A stretch of DNA of 44,317 bases from Flavicella sediminum. Its GTDB lineage: Bacteria; Bacteroidota; Bacteroidia; Flavobacteriales; Flavobacteriaceae. The position numbers and the translations under genes are program-made. The notes beneath the pieces are model-generated. The model was not told where the DNA came from. It made no database searches and saw only the letters and a list, made by a program, of their open reading frames with translations. Each line of letters opens with the position of its first letter. Within the stretch, counting starts at the first letter, position 1. The DNA lies in the NCBI RefSeq assembly GCF_006381105.1, contig NZ_VDET01000027.1, forward strand, positions 1 to 44,317, given 5' to 3'. Below, in pieces: positions 37,738-40,921 of the stretch.

Positions 37738-38349
37738 TTATTTTTTCAATATTCCATTTTTAACGCCCGCTTCAATGGCAATGTCTAAATGGTTTTCTGC
37801 GGGAGGAATGGGACAAGAATATTTATAATTATACGCACAATAAGGATTGTAAGCTTTGTTAAAATCGATAATTATTTGATTGTTCACGATATCACTTATA
37901 AAAACATCAATATATCTACCAGCTCCATAAGAACTTTCTCCATTGGTCAAATCTTTAAAAGGCAAAAACAAATAATCCTGGTATTCTGGATTCATTTTAG
38001 AGTCTTGACTTCTGTAAATACTCAATTGGTAACCCGCACCGTCAATAATAAATCGCGCTATAGCATATTGTCTGTACAAAGGTTTTCTTTTTGTTGAAGT
38101 CGTTAATGGAAACATGGGCGCTTCTGGTGTAAGTTGCAAAGAAGCTAATATTTTATATTTTTTATCAATTTTAAAAAAAGGCAAGGCTTTAAAATCAGAT
38201 AGGTCTTTTTTAGTTAAAGGCGAAGAATCTTTTGTGGCGTATTCATGAATTAATTTTTCTTGAAAAGCGGTTATTTTTTTAGTGTAAGCATCTTGTGCAA
38301 TAGCAGTAACGGTACTAAGAAAGCATATAAGTAAAACGATTTTTTTCAT
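37738..38349 (-). CDS. DUF1684 exported protein
   Basis: This 203-residue protein has a signal peptide ending near A18. The DUF1684 signature is clear: FLPFKDLTNGESSYGAGRY, then IDFNKAYNPYCAYNYKYSCP and PPAENHL. The conserved N, C and H residues of that block look like a site, but no activity is established. Its start overlaps the stop of the methyltransferase gene by 4 nt (ATGA), so the two are coupled. Confidence 0.87.
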   Translation of the reverse strand: MKKIVLLICFLSTVTAIAQDAYTKKITAFQEKLIHEYATKDSSPLTKKDLSDFKALPFFKIDKKYKILASLQLTPEAPMFPLTTSTKRKPLYRQYAIARFIIDGAGYQLSIYRSQDSKMNPEYQDYLFLPFKDLTNGESSYGAGRYIDVFISDIVNNQIIIDFNKAYNPYCAYNYKYSCPIPPAENHLDIAIEAGVKNGILKK

Positions 38350-39074
38350 GATCTGTTTTTTGTTTTATAGAGGATTGTTAATTTGGCAAGATAGTCGTAA
38401 TGTTCTCCTTCAGCAAGTAGTTCGCAATGCAAACCGTTGTAATTGGCACAGCGTTGCAATGTGTTAAAATCGACATATAACCAATCAAATTTTGGTGTTT
38501 TTTTTCCTTTATAGCCCATTTGAAAAGTTACTTCACCATAATAAGCTTGCTCACTATCAATCCAATGGTCTCCATTTTCATCTTCAAACATATAAATTAT
38601 ATCAGAAGAATCAATCAATATTTGTCCGTTTGTAGTGAGTATACTTTTAAGTTGACTTAAAAAAGGGCCGAGGTTTTCTAGTTTTCCACAGATTCCCGTT
38701 CCGTTCATTAAGGCCAGAAGTGTATCGTATTTTTCTTCTTTCAACGTCCAGATATCTTCGGCTTTACTTTGAGAAATACCTCTTTGCTGACAAACAGCAA
38801 TGGCTCCTTTAGAAATATCTAAAGCCGTAACGTTTTTTTGTTGGTTTTGTAAATACAAAGAATGACTTCCAGCACCTGCGCCAATATCTAAAATATTTCC
38901 CTTGCAGTGGTTTAAAGCAATTTGCTCTAGTTTCGGCATGTCAGAAAAAGTTCTAAATAAATAAGCCAAAGGAATGCTGTCATCTTCAGTGATAGATGAA
39001 TAAGTGGTAATATCTTCTGAATAATTGCCCTGTTGAAAATCTAACAAAGCGTCTCCATAAATATCTTCTGTCAT
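38346..39074 (-). CDS. class I SAM-dependent methyltransferase
   Basis: This 242-residue methyltransferase has the SAM-binding motif NILDIGAGAGSHSLYL near residue 81 and ALDISKGAIAVCQQRG as the acidic second motif. The substrate is unknown. It may be small-molecule directed, since no RNA-binding part is visible. A -7 element TAGATTTG (39099-39092, minus) lies 17 nt before the start. It is coupled to the DUF1684 gene by a 4-nt overlap. Confidence 0.85.
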   Translation of the reverse strand: MTEDIYGDALLDFQQGNYSEDITTYSSITEDDSIPLAYLFRTFSDMPKLEQIALNHCKGNILDIGAGAGSHSLYLQNQQKNVTALDISKGAIAVCQQRGISQSKAEDIWTLKEEKYDTLLALMNGTGICGKLENLGPFLSQLKSILTTNGQILIDSSDIIYMFEDENGDHWIDSEQAYYGEVTFQMGYKGKKTPKFDWLYVDFNTLQRCANYNGLHCELLAEGEHYDYLAKLTILYKTKNRS

Positions 39075-39142: not shown

Positions 39143-39685
39143 TTAAGAGGAGCAGACCTTGCAATCAGCTTTGTCTTTGTGTTCTCCTATTAAATGGCCA
39201 TGTTCATCAAGTGTGTAATCACAACAAGCAATAAAACCTTTTTTCAAAGCTTCACGGCCTCGTAAAATTCTTGATTTAGCAGCTGGCAGACTTATTTTTA
39301 ATTGATCGGCGACCGCTTGTTGTTTCCAACCTTTTAGTTCACTTAACAGCAAAGCCTCCTTGTAATGCTTCGGCAAATTTAAAATAAGGGGTAACAGACA
39401 GTCTTTGGCGTCGTGATTTTCGTTTTTACTTGTGTCGGCTGCCTCTTTTAATTCATTGGTTGTTGCAAGCGTATGTTTTCTAAAATAATCATTTATGGTA
39501 TTGTTGCAAATTGTAAATATCCACGATTTTAATCGATCTTTTTTTTGAAGTGTTTCTTTTTGTAAATGTATTTTTATAAAAACCTCTTGTAAAATATCAT
39601 CGGCCACAGTGGGGTTTTTGACTTTACTTAGAATAAATTTCAGTAAAGAATTGGAAAATTCCTTCCATATTTTTTCTGTTTCCAT
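39143..39685 (-). CDS. sigZ: ECF RNA polymerase sigma factor, SigZ type
   Basis: This 180-residue extracytoplasmic-function sigma factor has region 2 with DDILQEVFIKIH and the promoter-melting part KSWIFTICNNTINDYFRK, and region 4 with LSELKGWKQQAVADQLKISL and AAKSRILRGREALKKG. After region 4 comes a cysteine/histidine-rich tail (ACCDYTLDEHGHLIGEHKD, then CKVC) with four cysteines and three histidines, as in SigZ proteins; it may bind metal or sense thiols. No anti-sigma gene is adjacent. The ATG at 39685 is preferred to a TTG at 39718. A cysteine-rich micro-ORF ends 102 nt upstream in the same direction. Confidence 0.88.
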   Translation of the reverse strand: METEKIWKEFSNSLLKFILSKVKNPTVADDILQEVFIKIHLQKETLQKKDRLKSWIFTICNNTINDYFRKHTLATTNELKEAADTSKNENHDAKDCLLPLILNLPKHYKEALLLSELKGWKQQAVADQLKISLPAAKSRILRGREALKKGFIACCDYTLDEHGHLIGEHKDKADCKVCSS

Positions 39686-39787
39686 GCTGCTTTTTTTTGA
39701 AGTACTATCAAGGTACAATTAATAAAACGATAGATTTCAGTAGCTCTTATTAATTCAAGAATACTGAAATCTAAAGTTGATTTGTTT

Positions 39788-39889
39788 TTAGCAGTTGCAA
39801 TTCGTGCAAGTACACGATTCACAAGTACAGTTGCTACATTGTCCGTTTTTACATGCTTTACATTCACATGTACAATTTGTATTTCTCAT
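39788..39889 (-). CDS. 33-residue metallothionein-like cysteine-rich peptide
   Basis: An ATG at 39889 opens a 33-codon frame ending in TAA at 39788. It begins MRNTNCTCECKACK and has cysteines at 6, 8, 10, 13, 18, 21, 23, 26, 28, 31 and 33: 11 of 33 residues, mostly as C-x-C and C-x-x-C pairs, with almost no hydrophobic residue. This is what small metallothioneins look like, although I do not recognise a named family. It lies in the same orientation as sigZ, 102 nt upstream of its start, with a promoter-like sequence at 39910-39941. The length is below usual gene-finding limits. Random sequence would hardly give such a cysteine pattern, so I take it as a real gene; metal binding is inferred. 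Confidence 0.75.
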   Translation of the reverse strand: MRNTNCTCECKACKNGQCSNCTCESCTCTNCNC

Positions 39890-39909: not shown

Positions 39910-39941
39910 TAAAGTTATTCATAAGACGGGATTGTTCCAAA
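39910..39941 (-). promoter_or_regulatory. likely promoter of the cysteine-rich peptide and sigZ
   Basis: On the minus strand TTTG (39941-39938), 20 nt, then TAACTTTA (39917-39910) fits the Bacteroidota consensus with one mismatch (A for the last G). The micro-ORF begins 20 nt downstream. Confidence 0.5.
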
Positions 39942-40000
39942 AAAGATGCAGAAGAATGCAAAATAATTTCATAATAAAAAATGAGTTGTCTTAGAAAGTT

Positions 40001-40750: not shown

Positions 40751-40921
40751 ATGTCTGGCTTTAATTTAGCTCCGTTAGAAGAAGGAGATTTTTATTGGAA
40801 TGAAGACGGTTACCGTGTGTTTACAGAACAATTTCATTTAAAAAGAGGGTATTGCTGTAAAAGTGGATGCAAGCACTGTCCGTACCACTACGATAAAAAA
40901 ACAGATTCGTTTAAGCAATAA
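40751..40921 (+). CDS. small DUF5522 protein
   Basis: An ATG at 40751 opens a 56-codon frame (MSGFNLAPLEEGDFYWNEDG onward) ending in TAA at 40919-40921. The core RGYCCKSGCKHCPYHY has four cysteines in a compact C-C-x3-C-x2-C arrangement, typical of DUF5522, which probably binds a metal or an Fe-S-like centre. It lies 3 nt after the DUF4197 gene and 7 nt before the phosphotransferase gene, so the three form one unit. It is too short for a 60-residue gene cut-off. Function is unknown. Confidence 0.88.
   Translation: MSGFNLAPLEEGDFYWNEDGYRVFTEQFHLKRGYCCKSGCKHCPYHYDKKTDSFKQ

Follow-up and report, generated by a model that had tools for sequence, protein, structure and literature searches.

What does a reading frame of 33 codons, one third of them for cysteine, do directly in front of an ECF sigma factor gene? 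Such a frame lies before sigZ in the window, the whole 44,317-nt stretch of Flavicella sediminum DNA analysed here, where the initial annotation had proposed an overlooked, tiny metallothionein. The features of the locus are collected in Table 1.

Table 1. Features of the peptide–sigZ locus, in window coordinates.
Feature	Position	Strand	Remarks
−35-type element GCATCTTTTT of SigZ-type ECF promoter	39940..39949	-	fixed spacing in sigZ-linked copies
−10-type element CGTCTTAT	39921..39928	-	same shared promoter
Metallothionein-like peptide gene, type A, 33 aa, 11 Cys	39788..39889	-	ATG to TAA; conserved, Cys spacing fixed
Hairpin in peptide–sigZ gap	39731..39773	-	z −4.2; terminator/attenuator or mRNA 3′-end stabiliser
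sigZ, ECF sigma factor, 180 aa	39143..39685	-	Sigma70_r2 and r4_2; ATG start METEKIW
sigZ codon of invariant Cys96	39398..39400	-	sigma2–sigma4 linker/region 4 junction; region 4 begins at residue 96
sigZ C-terminal tail CC-x19-C-x2-C (C154, C155, C175, C178)	39152..39226	-	candidate metal sensor
SAM-dependent methyltransferase gene	38346..39074	-	68 nt after sigZ

Results

A conserved cysteine-rich gene

The frame reads as the initial annotation described it: an ATG-to-TAA frame on the minus strand that encodes MRNTNCTCECKACKNGQCSNCTCESCTCTNCNC, 33 residues with 11 cysteines and the C-terminus NCNC, followed after 102 nt by sigZ in the same direction. A second in-frame ATG lies 12 nt further upstream; alignment shows that the start at 39889 is the one common to relatives. 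Among 2,566 ATG-initiated small open reading frames (smORFs) of 18–60 aa in a 444,317-base sample of the host genome (the window and 20 × 20 kb), the peptide frame alone combined a length of ≥25 aa with a Cys share of ≥25%; of the smaller frames, two (19 and 24 aa) reached 32% and 29%. First-order Markov sequences (ten of 400 kb) gave 22 smORFs with at least 20% Cys and a maximum of 28%.

The 33-residue frame is a conserved gene under purifying selection. The peptide was recovered by tblastn in 10/99 genomes including the host, among them 5/6 of the genus (the sixth, G003, is 87% complete), and sigZ lay directly downstream in 9/10. All 11 cysteines were invariant in these ten genomes, in an alignment made without requiring any Cys pattern. 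A profile of the peptide matched 70/397 Flavobacteriaceae genomes and 48/237 genera at E≤0.01. The loci of these 70 and of G004 were read (71 loci), and 66 could be parsed with a pattern requiring 9/11 Cys; the unparsed L062, L063, L077, L080 and L081 stand outside later counts. Full 11-Cys spacing was present in 52/52 parsed sigZ-linked copies and 12/14 parsed copies without sigZ. When all sigZ-linked loci are counted it was present in 52/53, the exception, L080 (G231), being a decayed pair, in which a peptide without a start codon stands beside a sigZ with two in-frame stops; the two seem to have decayed together.

Pooled over 38 gapless sigZ-linked copies, pN was 0.216 and pS 0.736 (pN/pS 0.29), with pN lower than pS in 701/703 pairs. 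Cysteine was encoded by 303 TGT and 115 TGC codons, both of which were used at every Cys position, and codons other than Cys were also constrained (pN 0.353, pS 0.604). Recovery of the peptide in relatives, 5′ of sigZ, and retention of its cysteines alongside synonymous change in other codons had been suggested as checks on the frame, and both came out in its favour.

The metallothionein superfamily is recognised by its character: small proteins in which cysteine makes up roughly a third or a fifth of the residues, with CxC/CxxC arrays and few or no aromatic residues. The type-A peptide has this sequence character in size, Cys share and CxC/CxxC spacing, and the window peptide is without any aromatic residue. 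No Pfam model was matched at E≤1 by type-A peptides (0/10 members) and no NCBIfam model by the window peptide, a comparison that HMMER composition correction weakens for Cys-rich peptides; a PDB profile search and a search of plasmids with the peptide likewise gave no match. ‘Tiny metallothionein’, the original proposal, is the best reading of the peptide sequence, metal binding being predicted from it.

Linkage of peptide and SigZ

Type-A SigZ was found only together with the peptide. The SigZ profile (A2) was built from 16 peptide-linked SigZ proteins, and is biased towards these; it scored 52 of the 397 genomes at 178.7–292.8 bits, with the next score at 164.8, and the type-A clade is taken as at least 178 bits, a split chosen after the scores were known. 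By this definition 52 genomes had type-A SigZ and peptide, 18 the peptide alone and 327 neither (Fisher p 4.5e-50, a statistic that ignores phylogeny). Loss or breakage of the frame where sigZ is kept had been named in advance as evidence against a gene: type-A SigZ without the peptide occurred in 0/397 Flavobacteriaceae genomes and in 0/327 of those lacking the peptide, and in G231 both genes are decayed. These 52 genomes are not quite the same set as the 52 parsed loci: G231 belongs only to the former and G004 only to the latter.

Genomes with the peptide but without type-A SigZ measured 1.3–3.4 Mb, 13/18 of them 2.2 Mb or less, and several are incomplete. With the first ATG taken as start, the distance from peptide to sigZ was 12–249 nt (median 72) in 50 full-length cases. 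At L011 (G002) the first sigZ codons lie in another frame than the rest, which appears to be an assembly error or early decay.

A promoter shared by sigZ-linked copies

The window promoter, GCATCTTTTT-N11-CGTCTTAT, is common to relatives and ends 31 nt before the peptide ATG, a correction to the initial annotation, which had placed a promoter-like sequence 20 nt upstream; sigZ-linked loci show TGCATCTTTTT-N11-CGTCTATTATATGAAC upstream of the peptide. The relaxed form GCATCTTTTT-N11-CGTCT was found in 48/52 sigZ-linked copies, at a single spacing in all 48, compared with 0/13 peptide copies without sigZ and 1/10,400 mononucleotide shuffles. The four sigZ-linked copies that depart from the motif show visible variants (two GAATC, one GCATCTTTGAC, and one GCATCTTTATT further away). 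Shared −35 and −10 elements at fixed spacing ahead of the sigma operon are the pattern of ECF autoregulation, and we infer that the promoter is read by SigZ itself. The earlier conjecture of co-regulation with sigZ is strongly supported by this shared ECF-type promoter.

In the host genome only one site, at 39921–39949, was present at 0 or 1 mismatch, the reversed control pattern giving one match in one scan of that genome and none in the other. When up to one mismatch was accepted, a match was present in 38 of the 40 SigZ genomes scanned (out of 52), and 38/51 sites, including all 26 exact ones, lay at the peptide. Control genomes without type-A SigZ had a one-mismatch site in 7/40 and an exact site in none; these 40 were without a match for peptide or type-A SigZ, 7 of them as tested with TIGR02959 only. 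Reversed-pattern matches numbered 7 in each group of 40. A wider regulon was sought among the 13/51 sites away from the peptide, to be set against 7 sites in the controls; given these numbers and the single site in the host, there is no clear further target of the promoter.

The box TAnnTTT[AG], which we take to be the Bacteroidetes housekeeping box, was present in 11/13 copies without sigZ versus 5/52 sigZ-linked copies. Type-A peptides with neither sigZ nor the SigZ promoter were seen in small genomes at L053, L057, L065, L069, L075, L076, L078 and L079. These peptides have apparently been rewired to another promoter.

A recurrent hairpin before sigZ

The gap between peptide and sigZ had a hairpin with z below −1.5 in 46/48 loci (50 mononucleotide shuffles each; 48 of the 52 loci, four being outside length limits or partial). 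The arm sequences differ from locus to locus, and a structure that recurs although its sequence does not is suggestive of selection for a device. By partial termination or by protection of a 3′ end, the hairpin could yield much peptide and little sigma factor.

Invariant cysteines in SigZ

The best NCBIfam models for the window sigma factor are those of SigZ (181.2 of 212 and 164.9 of 168.65 bits). The protein falls under both curated cut-offs (TIGR02959, NF007215), and SigZ is the best-matching family by 83–99 bits over the next. A TTG start upstream of the sigZ ATG is also open. Among 14 control genomes, the SigZ model found matches in two, B. subtilis and Bacteroides ihuae.

C96, C154, C155, C175 and C178 were Cys in 50/50 full-length type-A SigZ proteins. 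The CC pair was invariant in an alignment of window SigZ with 34/36 loci of at least 140 bits among the best 80 of 302 relatives (L224 and L244 stood outside the alignment), and among phylum-wide matches to the SigZ model it was present in 24/30 and absent from 6/30. An AlphaFold model of SigZ has the ECF fold (pTM 0.44), in which the tail is of moderate confidence (pLDDT 75 in the penultimate block and 61 in the last), and a fold search with this model returned generic ECF sigma factors. The tail is a candidate metal sensor, reminiscent of the metal-sensing CorE sigma factors.

A second peptide type and other SigZ neighbours

The SigZ profile search also gave 39 lower-scoring SigZ-like places, of which 20 were fetched (L112–L131). 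Upstream of sigZ in 16/20 lay a second peptide, type B, MNTCKCTNCDCTKCNCGNCLENNCPCTKCDCNKCNCC-like, 37–39 aa long, with 14 invariant cysteines and a CC end, for which no Pfam or NCBIfam model was matched (0/16). Its promoter, judged by eye, had GTATC in 16/16, with GTCT in 15 and GTCA in L121; the −35 element thus shifts with the SigZ class, from GCATC to GTATC in the second. On the linker side, the Cys pattern of type-B SigZ is C-C-F or C-F-F. A type-B profile matched 24/397 genomes and 18/237 genera and, when the listings were compared by eye, no genome had both peptide types and 21/24 type-B genomes had a SigZ-like match.

No peptide was seen beside the SigZ-like gene in L114, L129, L130 and L131. 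SigZ of L114 has the CC...CxxC tail but no peptide, and in L130 and L131 GCGTCTTTTT...CGTC stands before sigZ itself; this kind of promoter may therefore predate the pairing of peptide and sigZ. Together with L245, L130 and L131 carry a SigZ-type promoter pattern immediately ahead of a sigZ-like gene that lacks a peptide, an arrangement that would represent autoregulation without a metallothionein.

Among the best 80 of 302 relatives in GTDB, a peptide of type A, type B or similar lay upstream of SigZ in 17/17 loci of at least 219 bits, with the promoter pattern in 14/17; at L219 the peptide is ~650 nt from sigZ with another frame between them, and L214 has a divergent form. Within the same best 80, a Cys-rich frame accompanied SigZ of 140–172 bits in 1/19 loci (L240), and an unlike Cys-rich frame accompanied other ECF loci in 2/44. 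A phylum-wide SigZ search matched 57/198 genomes. In 14/30 of the phylum-wide loci, a Cys-rich frame (at least 15% Cys) was found outside sigZ on the same strand of the fetched flanks, and the promoter pattern was found in 8/30. Four of these 14 frames were type A and those of L183, L184, L185 and L189 type B or similar, while other Cys-rich layouts lay upstream of sigZ in L166 and L175 and downstream in L167, L168, L169 and L176. Hosts of L166, L167, L168, L169, L175, L176 and L240 are other Bacteroidota and one unclassified bacterium.

Genes beyond sigZ and the question of metal

The common unit is a bicistron, since no co-directional gene recurs beyond sigZ. In 16 loci examined, the gene after sigZ was convergent in 8, and in the remaining 8 no co-directional first gene recurred, so that these loci offer no anti-sigma candidate, ten of the neighbours having been judged by eye; one gene family lay beyond sigZ, adjacent or nearby, in 6 of the 16. 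The methyltransferase gene follows sigZ in 4/5 loci of the genus (L009, L010, L012 and L013) and in none of the other five loci examined, having been seen only inside the genus, where it is possibly co-transcribed with sigZ; in NCBIfam, the window methyltransferase did not match ArsM. A small DUF5522 protein with a CCKSGCKHCPY motif is encoded next to the cluster on the opposite strand (window 40751–40921, plus strand); it is of a known family and apparently unrelated to the cluster.

Arsenic genes accompany some distant SigZ genes. Annotation of 20 neighbouring proteins from 11 loci placed an arsenite methyltransferase, over cut-off, directly after a more distant, SigZ-like gene of another phylum in 3/11 (L227, L229 and L232, from Proteobacteria, Syntrophomonadaceae and Paenibacillaceae MAGs), and SaoE-like permeases, far below cut-off, near L229 and L247. 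Distant SigZ occurred in 16 plasmid records. On a Hymenobacter plasmid, arsC and ACR3 lie within a few genes of the SigZ-like gene, and two small annotated frames before sigZ are not Cys-rich. No metal genes were among the neighbours of SigZ on Priestia and Vibrio plasmids, and none was apparent when ten Flavobacteriaceae neighbours were judged by eye. Outside Bacteroidota, SigZ may govern a response to arsenic or soft metals. On this sample of 11 loci a reading specific to arsenic was considered but not adopted, most other neighbours not being metal genes by name and the Priestia, Vibrio and ten Flavobacteriaceae neighbours showing none.

Discussion

The coding gene, its order before sigZ, the co-occurrence of the two, the promoter, the hairpin and the invariant SigZ cysteines probably belong to a bicistronic, self-amplifying metal-response operon, consisting of promoter, metallothionein, hairpin and metal-sensing sigma factor. 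The sensor would be on SigZ itself, formed by the C-terminal CC...CxxC tail and the cysteine at the linker/region 4 junction. A thiol-loving metal or metalloid would fill this site, upon which SigZ would bind RNA polymerase and read GCATCTTTTT-N11-CGTCT, a sequence nearly alone in the genome, before its own operon. From the first gene would come a metallothionein with 11 thiols that traps the metal, and the hairpin would either let only part of transcription reach sigZ or stabilise a short mRNA. As free metal fell, SigZ would lose its metal and the loop would shut. What we infer from these arrangements is that both proteins bind metal, which kind of metal is involved, which way the switch works and what the hairpin does. 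The evidence now goes further than the claim of a tiny metallothionein, pointing to an autoregulated metallothionein–sigma operon, common in Flavobacteriaceae and with parallel versions, in which the proteins would handle metal and SigZ would read the promoter.

A function for the frame could be denied altogether, as it is short and matches no Pfam or NCBIfam model, but chance is refuted by conservation, selection, promoter and linkage, and its prospects are negligible. It is very unlikely, too, that the frame is a cysteine-sensing leader, in which Cys codons stall ribosomes at low cysteine, the hairpin attenuates sigZ and the peptide has no function. Poly-Cys attenuator leaders are known in mycobacteria, and the order seen here, of short poly-Cys frame, strong hairpin and regulator gene, resembles theirs; in such leaders, the frame is found only with the downstream gene and pairs with a hairpin arm. 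Here, however, the frame persists without type-A SigZ in 18 genomes, and its pairing with the 5′ arm of the hairpin was not beyond that of codon shuffles (45 loci, mean z 0.15; two below −2). Moreover, Cys spacing is fixed (52/53 loci) and non-Cys residues are under selection, neither of which stalling needs. Leader-peptide attenuation found no support in either test, selection on non-Cys codons or pairing of the frame with the 5′ arm, and was set aside.

The peptide might act on SigZ, as a small thiol- or metal-bearing regulator (a soluble anti-sigma factor or a metal donor) and not mainly as a metal sink. This would account for the strict co-occurrence of type-A SigZ with the peptide, and for type-A and type-B peptides each having their own SigZ class; yet 18 genomes keep the peptide without type-A SigZ, with the TAnnTTT[AG] box in 11/13 examined, and the quite different Cys layouts beside SigZ are better explained by a common requirement for thiols than by a binding surface in common, so we regard it as unlikely. 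Equally unlikely, in our judgement, is a thiol-redox operon, with the peptide as thiol buffer and a SigZ that senses oxidants or electrophiles, not metals, by disulphides. In its favour, disulphides could form from the Cys pairs in the tail of SigZ, an Arenibacter plasmid carries a thioredoxin-family gene next to one for a SigZ-like protein, and a thioredoxin-fold gene is downstream in L245. Against this, arrays of CxC/CxxC with 11–14 Cys and little other conserved chemistry, as in these peptides, are typical of metal clusters, and SigZ-like genes precede an arsenite methyltransferase in 3/11 annotated loci, with one near arsC and ACR3.

The metal-response operon, which we prefer, leads to a broader proposal on which we are evenly divided: that SigZ stands at the head of a sigma-factor family whose members sense thiol-loving metals or metalloids by a built-in Cys tail, and that Bacteroidota have repeatedly recruited unrelated mini-metallothioneins (11-Cys, 14-Cys and other) into autoregulated operons whose regulon is nearly all trap and sensor. 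Two new sequence types of metallothionein-like peptide come from Flavobacteriaceae, present in 70 and 24 of the 397 genomes and associated with a sigma factor in place of a repressor, and the orphan regulator SigZ would gain a likely and directly testable job. The compact promoter–trap–sensor cassette could serve as a metal biosensor. Even where no family model exists, an adjoining promoter and regulator can lead to the discovery of genes of fewer than 40 residues.

Comparison with known systems

Like SmtA/BmtA and mycobacterial MymT, the type-A peptide is very small and Cys-dense, with C-x-C and C-x-x-C spacing. Unlike the SmtA/BmtA family, for which Pfam has PF02069, type A matches no Pfam model. 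Characterised bacterial metallothioneins are reported to adopt a fold of the GATA zinc-finger type and to contain His and hydrophobic residues (PMC10612145); in type A, His is not conserved and a hydrophobic core is lacking. Where the regulation of metallothioneins is described in the papers cited, it lies with an ArsR/SmtB-type repressor (PMC8790569) or with RicR (PMC10141476); the type-A peptide is tied, by contrast, to a sigma factor. A link between SigZ and a metallothionein was found in none of the titles and abstracts of the full-text literature searched, a body that takes in few subscription journals, and SigZ is listed simply as ‘ECF’, without a role, in a B. subtilis sigma-factor table (PMC10141391).

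Metal sensing by a cysteine-bearing C-terminus has precedents among sigma factors. OrbS, an ECF sigma factor, uses a C-terminal Cys cluster as a built-in Fe(II) sensor, comparable with the SigZ tail, is inhibited by metal and controls an iron-starvation regulon; its Cys spacing differs from that of the SigZ tail (PMC9023288). CorE and CorE2 also belong to the ECF group, and in both a cysteine-containing domain at the C-terminus lets metals switch the protein (PMC8999054, PMC3107203). As an ECF sigma factor, SigZ shares with these proteins (former ECF44, now ECF238) the lack of a linked anti-sigma gene, a short Cys-bearing C-terminal extension and a cysteine between the two sigma domains. The tails are spaced C-x4-C-x2-C-x-C in CorE and CC-x3-C-x2-C-x-C in CorE2 (PMC9023288), and differ from the CC-x19-C-x2-C of 50/50 full-length type-A SigZ proteins, which have one linker-side Cys (50/50) in place of the CxC linker motif of CorE-like ECF238. 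Because tail spacing and linker motif differ, SigZ is not filed with CorE and CorE2. The targets differ as well: CorE activates multicopper oxidase and copper ATPase genes (PMC10141476), whereas the one clear target of SigZ would be its own operon, with a metallothionein-like gene in it.
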